Of a DNA stretch of 64,000 nt, positions 29,776 through 37,613 are shown piece after piece. The notes beneath the pieces were generated by a model, which saw only the letters and a program-made list of their open reading frames with translations, did no database searches and was not told the origin of the DNA. This DNA comes from Geothrix sp. PMB-07 (GTDB taxonomy: Bacteria > Acidobacteriota > Holophagae > Holophagales > Holophagaceae), in contig NZ_CP132333.1 of NCBI RefSeq assembly GCF_030758935.1, positions 1,116,992 through 1,180,991 of the forward strand, read 5' to 3'. A program made the position numbers and the translations under genes. Each line of letters begins with the position of its first letter. Position 1 is the stretch's first letter.

Positions 29776-30318
29776 TCATCCCTGCGACTTGGCTGACATC
29801 AGTTCGGTCTTGCGGGCCGACCCGGCGCTGGAGCCGAAGTAGTAGCTCACCACGCCGATCCAGGCGGAGCCGAGGCTGCCTAGCATCACGTTGAGCACCT
29901 GGCTGTTGTTCAGGGCCGCGTTCGCGCTGTTGTGGATCAGGTAGCCCAGCAGGGAGAAGAAGCCGATGGTGATGAGGAAGGCCAGGACTTTGGGGGTCCA
30001 GTCCTGGGTTTTGATCTCCCGCTCCCGGGCGTTGGCGCGGTCCCCGGCCGCGATGGCCTCCAGGGCCTCGATGTTCTCGAAGCCCAGTTTCTGCATCTGC
30101 ACGGCGAAATCCTGATCGGCCTTTTTGAGGGCGAGCAGTTGATCTGGATTGGCACCTTGGATGGCGGCCGAAAGGCTGTTGTCATCCTTCGCGGCGTCAT
30201 CGGGCATGCCCAGGGCCTTGGTGAGCGCCAGGCCCGCGATGCCGCCCAGGGGGCCGCCCAACGCGGTGCCGATGGTGGGGGCGATGCTCTTGACGAGCGC
30301 TTTCCAATCAAACGACAT
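29776..30318 (-). CDS. holin-like membrane protein (GTA/phage 3TM type)
   Basis: A 180-residue protein. It begins with WKALVKSIAPTIGTALGGPLGGIAG, has a central hydrophilic coil (QLLALKKADQDFAVQMQKL), the segment DRANAREREIKTQDWTPK, and two C-terminal hydrophobic stretches (VLAFLITIGFFSLLGYLI and LGSLGSAWIGVVSYYFGS). This matches the three-TM holin family found in gene transfer agents and phages. It overlaps by 11 bases the end of the GH108 gene upstream of it, and the pair looks like a lysis cassette. No other phage genes are seen nearby. Confidence 0.8.
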   Translation of the reverse strand: MSFDWKALVKSIAPTIGTALGGPLGGIAGLALTKALGMPDDAAKDDNSLSAAIQGANPDQLLALKKADQDFAVQMQKLGFENIEALEAIAAGDRANAREREIKTQDWTPKVLAFLITIGFFSLLGYLIHNSANAALNNSQVLNVMLGSLGSAWIGVVSYYFGSSAGSARKTELMSAKSQG

Positions 30319-30847
30319 GGGGGGCCTCCGGAATGCGATCCGCCCGCCTCAGCCAGCCCTTCAGGAACACGGACTGACTGGGATTGCGATCGACGATGGA
30401 CTGGTAGTAGTTCTTCTGCGCCTGACAAAGGGCCTGCATGAGCGCCGAGGGGGATTGGGCGTTGGCGGCGCCGAGGGTCGCGGGCCCGGGTTGCCCATCC
30501 ACGGAAATGGGTGCGGTGATCAGGGTGTTGAGGGCCTTCTGGAGCAGTTTGACGGCGACTTCCAGGCTGCAGTTCACCCCGATGTCGAACAGCTTGATGG
30601 CGATGGCGGCATCGGAAAGGCCATCCCAGCGCCAGTAATCGGTCCGGTAGATGGTGCTGGCCTGATCCTTGGTCAGATCCTTCACATCGCCAGGAAAGCC
30701 CAGCTCCGGGTGGGCGCCGTTCCACTTGTCGAGGTTGCGCTGGATGATGCCGAAGTTGGTGGCGCCGCCGGGATCGGCCGGATGGTTCACATAGCCGCCT
30801 TCATTGCCGAGGGTGAAGGCGAGGGCGTTATCAAGGGGACTGTTCAA
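30308..30847 (-). CDS. GH108 family N-acetylmuramidase (endolysin-like)
   Basis: A 179-residue peptidoglycan hydrolase. Starting at the TTG 30847, the catalytic segment is NEGGYVNHPADPGGATNFGI with the catalytic Glu at 16; the C-terminal region has the predicted peptidoglycan-binding helices. No signal peptide is visible, so export would need the holin encoded downstream. I chose the TTG because AGGAG lies six bases upstream; a longer frame begins at 30877 without support. It overlaps the wHTH-like gene by TTGA. Confidence 0.87.
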   Translation of the reverse strand: MNSPLDNALAFTLGNEGGYVNHPADPGGATNFGIIQRNLDKWNGAHPELGFPGDVKDLTKDQASTIYRTDYWRWDGLSDAAIAIKLFDIGVNCSLEVAVKLLQKALNTLITAPISVDGQPGPATLGAANAQSPSALMQALCQAQKNYYQSIVDRNPSQSVFLKGWLRRADRIPEAPHVV

Positions 30848-31131
30848 TGGGAGCTCCTGGGGGTGGGGGGACGCCAAGCTGGGTGGGAGCCTGAAACCTT
30901 CTCAACGCTCTGGTACAAGATCCGACCGTCTGCCAGGTCGAGGCGGGCGATGCGCTGATCGGCCACCAGGAGGGCCAAGGCCTCTTGCACGGCCTCGACC
31001 GTGACCGAGTAGGCAGGGGCGGGAAGCCACCAGTTGGCGATGCCCTCCAGGCTGTCGGCGGCCTCGGGATGATCGTGAAGGTACGCCAGGATGCCCTGAC
31101 ACAGGCTGTTGGAATGAGAGGCGGAGGGCAT
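30844..31131 (-). CDS. small winged-helix-like protein, first gene of lysis cassette
   Basis: A 95-residue hypothetical protein. Residues 12-70 (ILAYLHDHPEAADSLEGIAN, VTVEAVQEALALLVADQRIARLDLADG) have the helix-helix-wing pattern of a winged helix and could bind DNA. The C-terminal tail is Pro/Ser-rich. The TGA overlaps the TTG of the muramidase gene, which argues that it is translated. It may regulate the cassette. The ribosome site is poor. The IS481 element lies 177 bases upstream. Confidence 0.5.
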   Translation of the reverse strand: MPSASHSNSLCQGILAYLHDHPEAADSLEGIANWWLPAPAYSVTVEAVQEALALLVADQRIARLDLADGRILYQSVEKVSGSHPAWRPPTPRSSH

Positions 31132-31301
31132 GGAGCACCCGGGGTGGTGCGGAACCCGTGCAAGTGGTGGGCCAAAGGGGTAAATGTGGTTTTGGTGCCA
31201 ATTAGGAATTGAACCTTCCGATCGCAAACCCACCGGGCTGGCGGGTTGGCCGGTGCTGGCATACCTAAGTTGAAGGATTTCGACAGGCTTACCGTAGTGG
31301 C

Positions 31302-31307
31302 ACTAGG
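31302..31307. repeat. IS481 target-site duplication, left copy
   Basis: ACTAGG, identical to 32319-32324. The NCTAGN form is the known target of IS481-family elements. The CTA on the plus strand at 31303-31305 reads as TAG on the minus strand and is the transposase stop codon. Confidence 0.9.
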
Positions 31308-32241
31308 TGTCGGTGCCAACGAGGTTGACCAGCCGGGTAACCGGGGGCTGACCACCTAAGGCCTTGTGGGGCCTGTGGTGATTGTAGAAGTGGAGCCAGG
31401 CGCCGAGCGCCTGGTTTCTTTCGTCTGAGCTCTGCCAGGTGGGACCGTAGGCCCACTCTCGCAGGGCCGTCTGGATGAGGCGCTCGGCCTTGCCGTTGGT
31501 CCGTGGGCGGTAGGGGCGGGTGCGGCTGTGCGTGAGGCCGAAGGCTTCGCGCATGGCCTTGAACGCCTTGGACCGGTAGGGCGAGCCGTTGTCGGTCAGC
31601 AGCTTGCGGGCGGTGACGCCCCGGGCCTGGAAGTGCAACAGCGCCCTCTGGAGGAATGAGGCAGTGGTCTCCTTCTTCTCGTCCGGGAGCACTTCCATGT
31701 AGCAGGCCCGCGAGTGGTCGTCCGAGCAGACATGGAGCACCTGGTAGCCCGCATCGCGGTTCTTGTGGTGGCGGATGCCTGTGGCGCGGTGGCCCACTTC
31801 GTGGAAGTTGGCGAGCTTCTTGGTGTCCAGGTGGAGGAGGTCGCCGGGGGCCGCGTGTTCGTAGCGGTTGTCGGGTTCCTTGGGCTGGAGGTCCGAAGCC
31901 TTGGAGATGCGCGCCTTGCGGAGCCAGAAGCCCACGGTGGAACGGGGCACGCCCAGTTCCGAGGCAATCCGGATCGCCGCCTGGCCCCGCCGCCTTCGAC
32001 CTACGGCCTCGACGACGAGGCCAAGCTCGTGGCTTCGCGCCAGGCGATGCGGCTGGCTGGAGCGATCCAGGAGTCCGGCCGGACCCTCTGTTTTGAACCG
32101 AGCGAGCCATCGGTAGGCCCTGCGCGTGCTGATTCCTATGGATTCAGCCGCATCCCGGACCGTCCAGTCCTCCTCCAGAACGCGCTTCACCATTAATGCT
32201 CGACTGGCGGGGCAAGACTTTGCTGAACTGTGGAGGTTCAC
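31303..32241 (-). CDS. IS481 family transposase
   Basis: A 312-residue transposase. The N-terminal helix-turn-helix region (VRDAAESIGISTRRAYRWLARF, RGQAAIRIASELGVPRSTVGFWL) is followed by a DDE catalytic core: Asp in DLLHLDTKKL and DNGSPY, and Glu in RTNGKAERLIQ. GTG 32241 is used with GGAGCC five bases upstream. No frameshift or stop is seen, so the gene looks intact. Its TAG stop lies in the duplicated target sequence and not within the element itself. Confidence 0.92.
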   Translation of the reverse strand: MNLHSSAKSCPASRALMVKRVLEEDWTVRDAAESIGISTRRAYRWLARFKTEGPAGLLDRSSQPHRLARSHELGLVVEAVGRRRRGQAAIRIASELGVPRSTVGFWLRKARISKASDLQPKEPDNRYEHAAPGDLLHLDTKKLANFHEVGHRATGIRHHKNRDAGYQVLHVCSDDHSRACYMEVLPDEKKETTASFLQRALLHFQARGVTARKLLTDNGSPYRSKAFKAMREAFGLTHSRTRPYRPRTNGKAERLIQTALREWAYGPTWQSSDERNQALGAWLHFYNHHRPHKALGGQPPVTRLVNLVGTDT

Positions 32242-32324: not shown

Positions 32325-32553
32325 GTGGGTTGATCTTGACCCAGGCCTTTCGGCAGGGGGCTGCGGGAAGGGTGCCGAGGTCGATTTCCTAATGAATGTC
32401 CGCAATGCATATGCAAAACATGACATTGGACTTCTTAGGTGTAATGGTTAAAAAAAGGCATTGAATGTTTATTGTGATTCTATGTGTTGGGCCTATAGTG
32501 CCTCATCGATCCATTTGTGGCCAACGACCTTCCCGCCGATCCAAGGAGGCCCC
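32325..32553. promoter_or_regulatory. AT-rich region upstream of sigma-54 activator gene
   Basis: A 229-base region, much more AT-rich than its neighbours. TTGGAC-N17-TAAAAA at 32426-32454 and TTGTGA-N16-TATAGT near 32474-32501 are possible sigma-70 promoters. An in-frame TTG at 32461 extends the downstream frame, but with no ribosome site. Confidence 0.4.
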
Positions 32554-33543
32554 TTGATTGGGCAATCGCCAGCCTTTCAAGCCACCGTTCGCCTCATGGC
32601 CCGCATGGCGGCCTGCGATGCGCCGGTGTTGATCGAAGGCGAAACGGGCACCGGCAAAGAACTGGCCGCCCGCGCCATCCACTACCAGAGCGCCCGTCGG
32701 GATGGGCCCTTCATCCCGGTGAACTGCGGCGCCATCCCGGATTCCCTCATCGAAAGCGAACTGTTCGGCCACCGCAAGGGCGCCTTCACGGATGCCAAGG
32801 ATCATCAGCCGGGCCTGGTGGTCCTCGCAGAGGGAGGCACGCTCTTTCTGGATGAAGTGGATGCCCTCTCCGCGAAGGGGCAGGTGACCCTGCTGCGTTT
32901 CCTGCAGGATCAGGAGTTCAGGCCGCTGGGGGCGCGCCGGGTGGAGCACGGGAATGTCCGCATCCTGGCCGCCAGCAATGCCAGCTTGCCCCTGCTGGCG
33001 GAGAAGGGCGCCTTCCGCTCCGACCTGCTCTACCGTCTGCGGATCCTCTGCCTGGAACTGGCGCCACTGAGGCATCGGCGGGGGGATGTGGAACTGCTGG
33101 CCGGTTGGTTTCTGGAGGCCTGCGATAAGCGCTTCGGCCTCGGGCTGAAAACCATCCATCCCGATTCCCTGCGATGGATGAACGAGTATCACTGGCCCGG
33201 AAACATCCGTGAACTCGAGAACCTCCTCTACCGGGAGTATCTGCTTTCCGAAGGTGTCCTGATGCGCATCGACGCGCCCAAGAGCCTGCATGCACCTAAG
33301 CCTGGAGCGCGCAGCAGGACGGGAGGGGATCTCCTGTTCCATCGTGCCAAGGCCCAGGCTGTGGAGGCCTTCGAGCGCGACTACCTGGTGGGCTTGCTGG
33401 GCCGGGCCGGGGGCAACGTGAGTCTGGCGGCCAAGCTGGCTGGCAAGGAGCGGCGCAGCCTGGGCAAGCTGCTGAAGAAGTACGGGCTGGGCCAAGCTCC
33501 CAGGGGGAATGCCCGCTTCCTGGACGACCCCCTTTCCGCCTGA
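32554..33543 (+). CDS. sigma-54 interaction domain ATPase without sensor domain, GAFTDA variant
   Basis: A 329-residue AAA+ enhancer-binding protein. Walker A is GETGTGKE (29-36), Walker B GGTLFLDEVD (about 94-103), the arginine region RSDLLYRL, and the sensor II motif WPGNIRELENL. A C-terminal Fis-type helix-turn-helix follows (GGNVSLAAKLAGKERRSLGKLL). No receiver, GAF or PAS domain precedes the ATPase, so it may be constitutive or controlled by a partner. The sigma-54 contact loop reads GAFTDA (76-81), where GAFTGA is usual. TTG 32554 is chosen because AAGGAGG lies four bases upstream. Confidence 0.88.
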   Translation: MIGQSPAFQATVRLMARMAACDAPVLIEGETGTGKELAARAIHYQSARRDGPFIPVNCGAIPDSLIESELFGHRKGAFTDAKDHQPGLVVLAEGGTLFLDEVDALSAKGQVTLLRFLQDQEFRPLGARRVEHGNVRILAASNASLPLLAEKGAFRSDLLYRLRILCLELAPLRHRRGDVELLAGWFLEACDKRFGLGLKTIHPDSLRWMNEYHWPGNIRELENLLYREYLLSEGVLMRIDAPKSLHAPKPGARSRTGGDLLFHRAKAQAVEAFERDYLVGLLGRAGGNVSLAAKLAGKERRSLGKLLKKYGLGQAPRGNARFLDDPLSA

Positions 33544-33649
33544 ACAGTGGGTGTGTTTCGACCCAGGGCGGGGCGCATGGTGACCCTGGGCTTGGGCATC
33601 CATACCATCCAAATCACGTTTTGAGACAGCTTCGAGTGCCCATCCCAAC

Positions 33650-33665
33650 TGGTGCGCAGGTTGCA
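33650..33665 (+). promoter_or_regulatory. sigma-54 promoter of the C1 peptidase gene
   Basis: TGGTGCG-N4-TTGCA, with GG at 33651-33652 and GC at 33663-33664 separated by exactly ten bases, the strict sigma-54 spacing. Two positions of the -24 box differ from TGGCACG. Transcription would start near 33676, 32 bases before the ATG. The neighbouring activator gene makes this functionally plausible. Confidence 0.65.
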
Positions 33666-33707
33666 CACGAGAAAACATCCGACCCAATCCATCCCCGGAG
33701 GTTCAAC

Positions 33708-34415
33708 ATGGCGAATCAACCGCATCCTCAGCGCATCGGACTCATCCCCGAGCACGACTCGAAACACGGCGGGCGCCTGGGGCGGCACCTCCATTTTGAC
33801 GACCGCAGTTGGAACTTCCCGGTGCGTCTTCTCAAAGGGGCCGCCATCCAGACCCACACCTGGGATCGGCCGACCAAGCCCTTCAATCAAGGCGAACTGG
33901 GCTCCTGCACCGGCAATGGCGCCGTGGGCGTGGCCTGCACCAAGCCCTATCGGCAGGCCGGTGTCCGCTACACCGAGGCCTTGGCCAAGAAGGTCTACAG
34001 CCACGCGACTCACGATGACACCATCGTGGGCGCCTGGCCGCCGAAGGATACCGGTTCCACCGTGCTGGGCGCCATGAAGGCGCTGAAGCAACTGGGCCTG
34101 GCCAAGGGCTACCACTGGTGCTTCAGCCTGGATGATGTGCTCAAGACGCTCTCGACCCTGGGCCCCGTCGAGGTGGGGGTGAACTGGTACGAAGGCTTCG
34201 ACAAGCCGGATGCCAAGGGATTGGTGAAGGTGGGCGGCTCCGTGCGCGGGGGGCATGCCTTTGAACTGCTGGGTGTGGATGTGGAGAAGAAATTGGTCTG
34301 GGCCATCAATTCCTGGGGTTCGGATTGGGGACTGGAAGGCCGCTTCGCCTTTTCCTGGAAGGATCTGGACCGCCTCCTCCACGAGGATGGCGAAGCCTCC
34401 ACCCTCACGCTCTAG
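33708..34415 (+). CDS. C1 (papain-like) family cysteine peptidase
   Basis: A 235-residue papain-fold protein. The active Cys is in QGELGSCTGN (Cys67), the His in GGHAFELLG (His183), and the Asn in INSWGSDWG (Asn201), with the oxyanion Gln at 61. There is no signal peptide or pro-domain, so it appears cytoplasmic or exported by another route. GGAGG precedes the ATG. It is preceded by a sigma-54-type promoter and followed 18 bases later by the large membrane protein gene. Substrate unknown. Confidence 0.9.
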   Translation: MANQPHPQRIGLIPEHDSKHGGRLGRHLHFDDRSWNFPVRLLKGAAIQTHTWDRPTKPFNQGELGSCTGNGAVGVACTKPYRQAGVRYTEALAKKVYSHATHDDTIVGAWPPKDTGSTVLGAMKALKQLGLAKGYHWCFSLDDVLKTLSTLGPVEVGVNWYEGFDKPDAKGLVKVGGSVRGGHAFELLGVDVEKKLVWAINSWGSDWGLEGRFAFSWKDLDRLLHEDGEASTLTL

Positions 34416-34433
34416 GCCTGACCAGGGTTTCCT

Positions 34434-37400
34434 TTGAGCAAGGTCTTTTCTCCCCTGACCCTCGGCGTGGGATTCACGGCCCTGCTTGCGCTGGTGCCGG
34501 GCCTGGGCCTGGGTTCCACCAGTCCCAAGCCCGTGATGGCGGCGGTTGCCAAAACCGCTGAGACCCAGGAAAGCCCTGGTAGGGGCGGGGTGGGAACCCT
34601 CTTGGAACAGTGCCTGCGGGACCGGGCCCGGGCTGGCATCGCGCCCGTGGACGTGACGATCCTGACCCTTCCGGACCCTCAGCGGACGAACATGGGCTTG
34701 TGGTTCGACCTGCGCCTGAACGCCGTGCAGCGGGCCTTTCGCACCTTCGATTTCCTGCCCCGGAGCTTCTACCTGCCCTGGGGCGCCAAAGCGAAAGAAG
34801 GGGGAGATGCCGGTGTTTCGTCGGCCTTCCCCGAACCGGGGTTGGGCCTCATCTGGTTCGCCCGGGAGGGGGCCGCTCCGGCCTACCACGCGCTGTTCAT
34901 CGTGGGGGAAAGCCAGGCCCTGGGCGTGAACCGCGAGGCCCTCCGCCAGGCCCTGCAGCTGGCGGCCAGGGTGGTTCCCGCCGACGCGGGCCGTCGAGTC
35001 TCGATTCTGGGCCCCCAATTCTCCGGGAGCCTGACCTCCCTGGGCGCTGGGCTGGAGGCCCACTTCAAGGATCCTTCTGCCTTGAATGTGCGCGTCCAGG
35101 GCACCACCACCCTCGATGCCAGTGGCACCAAGCTGCTGCGAGAGGCCCTCGGTCCCGTGGAGCCCAGGCGGCTGGAGATCTCCACCTGGCTCTGCAACCT
35201 TTCGGGAACCGCCAAGGAGAGCCTGCTGAGCTGGTACATGAAGGAGGCTGGCTGGCCCCGGGATGCTTCCAAAGTGGCGCTGTTTACAGAAGCGAACACG
35301 GCCTATCGGCGGGAGGTGCAGGCCGGTGAAGCGATGACGCAGATCCTCTTTCCCATGGGGCTGTCGCGGCTCCGCTCCGAGCGGCAGGCCATGGAGCGCA
35401 GCCTGGGGAAGGATGGCGCCTCGGAGCTGGTGCTTCCCTCCAGCCTCCTGGGACCGGCCCAGGAAGAGACGCAGCGGGGGCTGGATACGGTGCCTCAGTT
35501 TGCTGGCGACACCATCCGGAACACGGAGCTCACCCTCGCGGGAACGATCCTGAGTCTGGCCCGGCGGGGCTATACCCACGTGGGCATTTCCGCCAGTGAT
35601 CCCCAGGATCTGATGTTCCTGGCCGAGCGGATCCGCGCCTACCATCCTTCGTGCACACTCTTCACCACCAGCGGGAACCACAGCCTGTTCGCCCACCCCA
35701 ACGTCAGTCAGGCCATGGATGGCATGGTGATGTTCGGCGGGTATCCCGTGACAGACTCTGTGCGCGCCCTTTCCCTGCAGAAAGGAGAGCTGGAATCCCC
35801 GGTGCGGTTCACCTCCGAGGGTGAATACGCCACCTACTACGCGACCCTGCTCCTGCTGGACCCGGCCCGTGCCAAGGATCCCGAGCGGGCCTTCTGGGGG
35901 CGCCAGGGCTACGTGTCCATCGTGAAGGGCGGCAGTGTGTGGCCCCTGCGGCATGGTGGGTTGGCAGTGGCCCGTGAGGGCGGGTTGGTGTGGGATCACG
36001 ATGTCGAAGGGCGGTATCGCGAGGTGGCCACCCAGAGCAAAGACCTCGTCCAGTACGTGCATTCCCGTTTGCGGCAGCTGGCGTTGTTGCTGGTGGGCCT
36101 GGGACTGGCGATGGTGTGGGTGTTCCTGGGCCCGCTCCTGGGGGTGGCCAAGGTGCCCAGCCATGAGCCCGGCCTGAGCCCCTATCGCAACCTCCTGGCG
36201 GGTGCGGTGCTCGCCCTGGGCACCCTCAGCTTCCTGGCCATGGGCTATGTCCTGCCGCTGGCGGTGCTGAGAGGATCGCCCTGGCGGGATCCCTTTCTGG
36301 GGATGAGCCTGCTGGTGTGGGCCGCACTCGTGGGGCTGACGTTCTGGGCCCTCTCCGGTCGCCTGGGCGCCATGCGGGCCCTCCTGCTGTCGCTTTTGGC
36401 GCTGGTGCCAGCCGCCCTCATGGCCCTCTGGGGACCGAAGCATTTCCTGGACTACATGCCGAACTATCTGCGGTTCTCGTCGCCCGGGCGGGGCATTTCG
36501 ATGCTGCCGACCATGGTCCTTCTGGCGGCGGGCCTCGCCCTTTTGCTGCGCACCTGGTTCGCGGTGCGGCGCCAGGGGCACGAGGCCTTCTGGCCTGCGC
36601 CGCTGGGCCTCAGCGATCCGCAGATCCTTCGACTCTGCCATCTCCGAGGACTCCAGTTCCAGCCCTGGACCTTTGCCATCGTGGCCATTCTCGCAGGCTT
36701 TCAATGGTTCCTGCCGGGCGGCATCATCCGGCCGCTGATGGAGGGGCAGGGGGCCACCCTGGTCGTGGTGGCCGTGGCCAGCGGGTTGTTCACGGCGAGC
36801 CTGTTCCTGTTCTGGCAGTTTCACCGGGGCTGGCAGGACCTGCGCCGGGTGCTGGAGGTGCTCGATTTCAGCTCGTATCGCGCGGCCTTCGCCGAGGTGG
36901 GTGGGCTGGTGGAGTGGAACGCCATGCGGGCCATGGGCCGGGGGCTGTGGATGCATCGGTCCAGCCTCCGCGGGCGGGAGATCCTGAACGAGCAGAGGGA
37001 CTGGGTGGCGGAGGTGGAGCCGGATTTCCCGGCCCACCTTGAAGCGCTGGATGCCATCGAGGAGGGCACTTCCAAGACGCGGCTGGGCCTGGGCGAGTAT
37101 CAGAAGTGGCGGGTCCGCCTGGCGGTGGCCCTCGAAATGACGGCCTGCGGAGACGCTGTGGCGGCCGCCTGCGGGAAAAACCCCGCTGGGGCCATGGCCC
37201 ATCAAGCAGAAGTGGATCTCTTCAAGGCCCTGCGGGCGGTTCACTTCATCCGTCAGGCCTTCCTGGTCATGCGCCATCTGCTCATCGGTTCCGTGGGCAC
37301 GCTGATCCTGCTCGTGCTGGGCGTGGCGGCTTTCGACTTTCAACCGAAGAATGATGTGCTGATCCTGCTTTGCGGCGCGCTGCTGATCATGGCCGCCTGG

Positions 37401-37613
37401 GCGGGCATGGCCATCCTGAACATGGAGCGGGATCCCCTGCTCAGCCTCATGGAAGGCACCCAGGCCGGGGAAGTGAAGCTGAGCCTGGGGCTGGTGGAGA
37501 ACGGCTTCCGCTTCGTGCTGGTGCCCCTTCTGCTCCTGCTGGCGACCCTCAATCCTTCCTTCGGTGGTCTCCTGGTGCAGGTGTTCAACCCGCTCATGCA
37601 TCTTCTGAAGTGA
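34434..37613 (+). CDS. large multi-TM membrane protein with N-terminal extracytoplasmic region, unassigned
   Basis: A 1,059-residue protein that I do not recognise. A signal-like segment (about residues 5-28) is followed by some 510 mostly soluble residues, including a stretch near 365-430 (THVGISASDPQDLMFLAERI, NVSQAMDGMVMFGGYPV) whose pattern resembles a type I periplasmic binding domain, then about ten membrane helices between 545 and 1050, with a large soluble loop near 800-940. Start is TTG 34434; the ribosome site is weak. It is downstream of the C1 peptidase and likely in its operon. No enzyme motif is evident. Confidence 0.6.
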   Translation: MSKVFSPLTLGVGFTALLALVPGLGLGSTSPKPVMAAVAKTAETQESPGRGGVGTLLEQCLRDRARAGIAPVDVTILTLPDPQRTNMGLWFDLRLNAVQRAFRTFDFLPRSFYLPWGAKAKEGGDAGVSSAFPEPGLGLIWFAREGAAPAYHALFIVGESQALGVNREALRQALQLAARVVPADAGRRVSILGPQFSGSLTSLGAGLEAHFKDPSALNVRVQGTTTLDASGTKLLREALGPVEPRRLEISTWLCNLSGTAKESLLSWYMKEAGWPRDASKVALFTEANTAYRREVQAGEAMTQILFPMGLSRLRSERQAMERSLGKDGASELVLPSSLLGPAQEETQRGLDTVPQFAGDTIRNTELTLAGTILSLARRGYTHVGISASDPQDLMFLAERIRAYHPSCTLFTTSGNHSLFAHPNVSQAMDGMVMFGGYPVTDSVRALSLQKGELESPVRFTSEGEYATYYATLLLLDPARAKDPERAFWGRQGYVSIVKGGSVWPLRHGGLAVAREGGLVWDHDVEGRYREVATQSKDLVQYVHSRLRQLALLLVGLGLAMVWVFLGPLLGVAKVPSHEPGLSPYRNLLAGAVLALGTLSFLAMGYVLPLAVLRGSPWRDPFLGMSLLVWAALVGLTFWALSGRLGAMRALLLSLLALVPAALMALWGPKHFLDYMPNYLRFSSPGRGISMLPTMVLLAAGLALLLRTWFAVRRQGHEAFWPAPLGLSDPQILRLCHLRGLQFQPWTFAIVAILAGFQWFLPGGIIRPLMEGQGATLVVVAVASGLFTASLFLFWQFHRGWQDLRRVLEVLDFSSYRAAFAEVGGLVEWNAMRAMGRGLWMHRSSLRGREILNEQRDWVAEVEPDFPAHLEALDAIEEGTSKTRLGLGEYQKWRVRLAVALEMTACGDAVAAACGKNPAGAMAHQAEVDLFKALRAVHFIRQAFLVMRHLLIGSVGTLILLVLGVAAFDFQPKNDVLILLCGALLIMAAWAGMAILNMERDPLLSLMEGTQAGEVKLSLGLVENGFRFVLVPLLLLLATLNPSFGGLLVQVFNPLMHLLK

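Follow-up and report, generated by a model that had tools for sequence, protein, structure and literature searches.

The question raised by this locus is what a 1,059-residue membrane protein without a family name does beside a cysteine peptidase gene in the genome of Geothrix sp. PMB-07 (Acidobacteriota; 4.24 Mb in one contig, NZ_CP132333.1). The analysis covers a stretch of 64,000 nucleotides, hereafter the window, and the positions given below are those of the window. Two parts of the answer are strongly supported: the anatomy of the protein, which belongs to an unnamed family and joins an outer domain of known type to a membrane domain of unrecognised fold, and the setting of its gene in a sigma54-controlled lysis regulon, which is our main new finding. 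The protein and its parts are as follows.

34434..37613, plus strand: 1,059-residue membrane protein with a signal-like start, a type I periplasmic-binding-protein fold and about ten transmembrane (TM) helices; TTG start codon
34635..35993, plus strand: residues 68-520, type I periplasmic-binding-protein (Venus-flytrap) fold, predicted to lie outside the membrane; the best-conserved part
36063..37559, plus strand: residues 544-1042, membrane domain of seven TM helices, a helical insert (798-940) and three further TM helices
36825..37253, plus strand: residues 798-940, soluble helical insert, predicted cytoplasmic from the helix count

The plus strand of this gene is coding and under selection in frame, as indicated by the differences from three orthologues, which fall on codon positions 1/2/3 as 117/69/291, 216/171/481 and 275/232/514. 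A chance open reading frame or a gene on the opposite strand was rejected, the antisense frame at 33381-37601 (1,406 residues) being broken by stops in all three orthologues. Orthologues are present in 11 of 47 genomes of the genus, and ten of them were aligned from a common start (MSK or MAK). Hydropathy averaged over 41 homologues, combined with AlphaFold (AF2) prediction, places a signal-like segment at approximately residues 7-27 and TM helices at approximately 544-570, 586-611, 621-643, 648-667, 691-713, 745-764, 773-797, 941-966, 973-997 and 1019-1042. The full-length AlphaFold model, built from the 41 sequences, has a mean predicted local distance difference test score (pLDDT) of 75.6 and a predicted template modelling score (pTM) of 0.75. 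Model, fold comparison and hydropathy together bear out the sequence-only reading of this gene, which had described a binding-protein-like N-terminal half, about ten TM helices and a large loop near 800-940; the loop is the soluble helical stretch at 798-940. The same reading had suspected a periplasmic binding fold at 365-430, and the fold is indeed there, spanning the wider region of residues 68-520.

These residues adopt the two-lobed type I fold and in the AlphaFold model superpose on LivK (3td9) with a Z score of 22.7 at 3.2 Å over 304 aligned residues; further matches are to aromatic-acid and amino-acid binding proteins and AmiC (Z 18-21). The likeness to type I periplasmic binding proteins (LivK/LivJ, AmiC and the mGlu and iGluR ectodomains) thus lies in the fold of residues 68-520, with Z up to 22.7. 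Unlike the binding proteins, which are free or lipid-anchored, the domain here is fused to a multi-TM domain without a recognised fold, no ATP-binding cassette (ABC) importer components are found among the scanned neighbours, and in none of the 41 members does Pfam recognise a periplasmic binding protein. The binding domain also holds most of the conservation, with 34 of 456 positions at least 90% identical over the 41 homologues, compared with three of 239 in the TM helices.

The membrane half, modelled alone, reaches a pLDDT of 81.3 and a pTM of 0.83, and finds no Foldseek match among PDB folds at E values up to 0.001. In a second fold comparison a designed protein came first, and its Z of 8.0 falls in the range given by the tool for models lacking a clear match. 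A profile search against PDB sequences had adrenergic receptors as best matches (E 0.0011, over the TM helices), which we put down to likely hydrophobic composition. Given a binding domain outside, the helix count places the insert 798-940 in the cytoplasm; loop charges are weakly informative on its orientation. Among the polar, charged, tryptophan, proline and glycine residues of the TM helices, P608, W666, P1031 and P1041 alone are at least 80% conserved over the 41 homologues, and no charged residue inside the helices reaches that level.

No known transporter or synthase family emerges from sequence or fold searches, such a match being what the sequence-only reading had named as the sign of an ordinary protein. 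Pfam, NCBIfam and PADLOC hold no relevant family for the protein, and neither Pfam nor NCBIfam gives a match to a transporter; a PHROGs scan returned a single weak match to a family of unknown function (E 0.078). The 41 members searched against Pfam at E up to 0.1 touch ten families, one member each, none of which fits. No relatives were found in plasmid sequences or in IMG/VR (26 stretches found by pattern, none confirmed), nor any match at E up to 0.001 in a BFVD fold search, and searches of the open-licence literature turned up no description of the family, nor of any Geothrix lysis cassette run by sigma54.

The setting of the gene consists of four units that recur in the genus: a divergent operon encoding a small protein, a GH108 endolysin and a holin-like protein; a sigma54 activator; a C1 peptidase; and the membrane protein. 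The elements around the membrane gene in the window are the following.

32554..33543, plus strand: sigma54 activator (bacterial enhancer-binding protein), 329 residues, AAA+ and Fis-type helix-turn-helix (HTH) domains only, no sensor domain
33650..33665, plus strand: P2, sigma54 -24/-12 promoter TGGTGCGCAGGTTGCA, upstream of the pair of peptidase and membrane protein genes
31159..31174, minus strand: P1, sigma54 promoter TGGCCCACCACTTGCA, upstream of the lysis operon
32326..32343, no strand: palindromic enhancer candidate 1, TGGGT-N8-ACCCA
33548..33565, no strand: palindromic enhancer candidate 2, TGGGT-N8-ACCCA
33708..34415, plus strand: C1-like (papain-type) cysteine peptidase, 235 residues, no signal peptide seen; Cys67, His183, Asn201
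30844..31131, minus strand: small conserved protein, 95 residues, first gene of the lysis operon
30308..30877, minus strand: GH108 endolysin with a peptidoglycan-binding domain
29776..30318, minus strand: holin-like small membrane protein
31303..32241, minus strand: IS481-type transposase between P1 and its enhancer, outside the conserved cassette

The activator is of the sensorless PspF type, with a Walker A motif (GETGTGKE), a GAFTGA-type loop that reads GAFTDA, an HTH_8 domain and no N-terminal regulatory domain. Its own promoter (32472..32499, plus strand, TTGTGA-16-TATAGT) is one that we take to be sigma70-like. Because the activator consists of AAA+ and HTH domains without an N-terminal domain, it probably needs control in trans, and the membrane protein is a candidate for such a trans-acting partner.

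Both promoters are conserved in position. P1 stands at the matching place in all twelve loci that hold the region (the window, L014-L017, L019, L020, L022, L059, L102, L109 and L111), and P2 is present in ten of the eleven loci where the activator adjoins the peptidase (the window, L014, L015, L016, L019, L020, L021, L022, L059 and L102; missing in L109). At L103, L104 and L107, which are without the activator, no P2 was seen ahead of the peptidase gene. The palindrome TGGGT-N8-ACCC lies upstream of P1 in 12 of 12 cases and upstream of P2 in nine of nine aligned, one altered outer base being allowed, typically some 150-185 bases from the promoter; for P2 of the window and of G028 the distance is about 105 bases. 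Across eight aligned P1 regions all eight promoter-core columns and all nine enhancer-arm columns are invariant, against 67 of 345 gap-free columns overall (a background of 19%). Sigma54 itself is available, since rpoN occurs once in each of the 15 genomes tested, so that sigma factor, -24/-12 promoters and enhancer sites are found together. A genome-wide palindrome search covered six genomes, with additional sites read in the window's genome; there, none of nine sites outside the cassette has a sigma54-like site scoring at least 20 within 300 bases. A mirror control pattern gave more matches than the enhancer pattern itself. The pattern alone is therefore not enriched genome-wide, and the case for the enhancers rests on position and conservation. 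In two other genomes an enhancer-like palindrome lies some 1.7 kb away from the match to rpoN (G009:C45:2687-2704 and G013:C4:488006-488023); none was seen near rpoN in the window's genome.

In the divergent operon, endolysin and holin genes lie side by side, as in phage-type lysis modules, and some phage relatives of the holin-like protein stand beside lysozyme genes, one of them being annotated as a holin. The 95-residue protein, in its G013 copy, weakly resembles phrog_1578 (E 1.6e-4), a phage protein family without assigned function. The window's P1 enhancer lies about 1.15 kb from its promoter with the IS481 element in between, an insertion found in the window and at none of the other cassette loci compared; because the element parts P1 from its enhancer, control of lysis may be altered in this strain and its lysis operon weakened. 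The peptidase combines a Cys-His-Asn set of catalytic residues with C1 similarity, at E 6e-4 in Pfam (20.4 bits, slightly below the 20.7 cut-off) and E 3e-45 to a PHROG peptidase. The residues C67, H183 and N201 are retained in 10 of 11 aligned sequences, L114 being the one that differs. The gene ends at 34415, 18 bases before the membrane gene begins at 34434, and the two very probably share P2.

The distribution of these genes in the genus ties the membrane gene to the lysis genes. When counted at a minimum of 69% identity, the GH108 gene is present in 11 of the 47 genomes, namely in ten of the 11 carriers of the membrane gene and in one of the 36 non-carriers. The membrane gene adjoins the peptidase gene in nine of the 11 carriers, and the peptidase occurs in 25 of the 47 genomes, mostly without the membrane gene; in G012, G034 and G016 it sits in the matching chromosomal place without activator or lysis genes. 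Fisher's test gives 2e-8 for the membrane gene with the lysin and 0.005 with the peptidase, both values ignoring shared descent and physical linkage. The membrane gene is thus tied more closely to the lysis operon (10 of 11) than to the peptidase. The sequence-only reading had proposed the peptidase as partner and its co-occurrence as a check; adjacency and the probable common promoter partly uphold a connection, whereas the closer link is to the lysin-holin operon and the sigma54 activator. Its further suggestion that the membrane protein is a substrate of the peptidase found no support.

In the remaining carrier, G031, activator, P1 and small gene stand at the end of a contig, so the contig break may account for the missing lysin. 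The small lysis-operon protein is encoded a second time in G031 (L109:1930-2163), about 9 kb from the first copy, with the rest of the operon not seen there. In G009 the peptidase is absent and the membrane gene starts about 20 bases after the activator. This genome has an additional sigma54-like site with GGGTC half-sites (L017:12015-12030), downstream of the membrane gene and before a 711-residue gene (promoter and gene together at L017:12015-14221) with a start region similar to the peptidase's; the 711-residue gene belongs to no known family, with no plasmid match and no significant Pfam hit. The arrangement in G009 suggests that the cargo of the regulon may be swappable, with activator, lysin and membrane protein being kept.

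The family extends beyond the cassette. A search with the Geothrix alignment found matches in 12 of the 77 genomes searched in the order and in 21 of the 396 sampled across the phylum; a wider alignment found them in five of 193 genomes in one further class and in 37 of 250 in another. The remote relatives in Acidobacteriota occur patchily, measure 1,100-1,460 residues and share about 17-23% identity with the protein of the window. One genome, G066, has a second, remote family member of 1,385 residues (L058:7052-11206) between genes for an NAD-binding oxidoreductase and an alpha/beta hydrolase. A scan of remote neighbourhoods took in 40 chosen proteins, two of which are themselves family members. 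Direct neighbours of some relatives are muramidase, patatin or papain-like peptidase genes (L052:6544-9135, L051:5672-8914, L049:4851-5732, L048:6587-9298), with patatin at L048 and L051, muramidase at L052, papain-like peptidase at L049 and haem peroxidase at L048. The idea of a common sensor with exchangeable toxic enzymes was dropped, 20 further proteins around L082-L100 coming mostly from ordinary genes. MacB/FtsX exporter-type genes lie near a gene of the family at two loci.

The reading that best accommodates these observations, with a probability of roughly 0.38, is that the membrane protein is a ligand receptor linked to the regulated-lysis cassette and tuning its sensorless activator. 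It would be a one-chain receptor, with the Venus-flytrap domain outside the inner membrane, a multi-helix membrane domain of a new type and the helical insert in the cytoplasm. The PspF-like activator would bind the palindromic enhancers and drive two operons, one from P1 for the small protein, the GH108 endolysin and the holin, and one from P2 for the leaderless peptidase and the receptor itself. Binding of a ligand outside may change the membrane domain and so tune the activator from the cytoplasmic side, and the tuned activator would in turn set the decision to lyse or permeabilise, with the peptidase presumably released by lysis.

Class C G-protein-coupled receptors (GPCRs) are built from a Venus flytrap plus seven TM helices. 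The protein described here resembles them in its ectodomain fold and in the seven TM helices that precede the insert; it differs in having three additional TM helices and in a membrane domain that shows no clear superposition on theirs, the scattered GPCR matches having Z of about 5, below the noise level of the tool. A known system of similar genetic layout is the phage-type lysis cassette ALC of Yersinia entomophaga, which releases exoproteins and has a neighbouring regulator, RoeA (PMC10101115). Like type 10 secretion and the ALC, the present locus has holin-like and endolysin genes with a regulator gene of their own beside them, and a leaderless protein is controlled jointly with them (PMC10101115). 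The regulator there is PhoB-like, whereas control in the acidobacterial host is by sigma54 and a sensorless activator; here the likeness to type 10 secretion consists of genes and joint promoter control, with lysis and release as a presumed outcome. Control of a sensorless activator in trans has a precedent in PspF, which is controlled by PspA (PMC3791423); PspF too is made of AAA+ and HTH domains only. The cassette differs in having no recognised PspA gene and in its targets, which are lysis and peptidase genes.

Several observations weigh against the receptor reading and hold its probability at the value given, chief among them the genomes G064 and G031 and the fact that most remote relatives have ordinary neighbourhoods. 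G064, the sole genome with the lysin but no membrane gene, has the whole cassette apart from that gene, and because its cassette persists, activator and lysis genes do not need the membrane protein. In G031 the membrane gene occupies a different place, and its upstream region has neither the enhancer nor a sigma54 promoter. Outside the genus, the neighbours scanned around 25 loci show no such activator-lysin arrangement and are mostly ordinary genes, so that the general job of the family cannot be the lysis cassette. In addition, no known signalling domain could be made out in the cytoplasmic insert, and the modelled structure might also be that of a transporter. An accessory gene placed here by history, a stand-alone surface protein of Acidobacteriota that now lies downstream of P2 and is merely read from it, would account for the natural absence in G064, the relocation in G031 and the patchy, context-free distribution in the phylum. 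We nevertheless consider it unlikely, given that most carriers keep the gene beside the cassette down to 59% protein identity and that it stays with the activator after the loss of the peptidase in G009.

Somewhat doubtful is a solute importer, in which the binding domain passes its ligand to the fused membrane domain, a secondary transporter or channel that needs no ATPase; its presence in the regulon would then be either accidental or a means of recovering released nutrients. The fold shared with binding proteins of amino-acid and aromatic-acid importers, the ten or so TM helices and the many unrelated neighbourhoods of the family speak for it, but Pfam and NCBIfam give no transporter match and the PDB fold search no convincing one, and conservation is lower in the membrane domain than in the binding domain. 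This conservation pattern fits a role in binding and is mild evidence against a transporter that uses conserved charges; because the binding domain is best conserved and the TM helices hold no conserved charge, we favour a receptor over a transporter. Improbable, in our view, is a functional partner of the peptidase, whether membrane anchor, inhibitor, activator or substrate: the two genes are adjacent and probably co-transcribed in nine carriers and a C39/C70-type papain-like peptidase lies directly upstream of the relative at L049, yet the peptidase is far more widespread than the membrane gene, G009 carries the membrane gene without it, in G031 the two are on different contigs, and no peptidase is among the scanned neighbours of most remote relatives. 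The receptor reading can also be taken further, to a bacterial family of one-chain receptors like the class C GPCRs, built of a flytrap ectodomain, TM helices in groups of seven and three and a cytoplasmic insert, which in Geothrix-like bacteria would sense an outside solute and govern sigma54-dependent programmed lysis, releasing the peptidase or, in G009, the different 711-residue cargo; this extended form is quite unlikely.

Acidobacteriota thus hold an unnamed membrane protein family of receptor-like design, one branch of which stands in a fully readable sigma54 regulon controlling lysis genes. If the receptor role is true, the family would fuse a flytrap domain to a membrane domain of unrecognised fold, and the Geothrix locus would offer a simple genetic handle on the trigger of self-lysis in an environmental bacterium.

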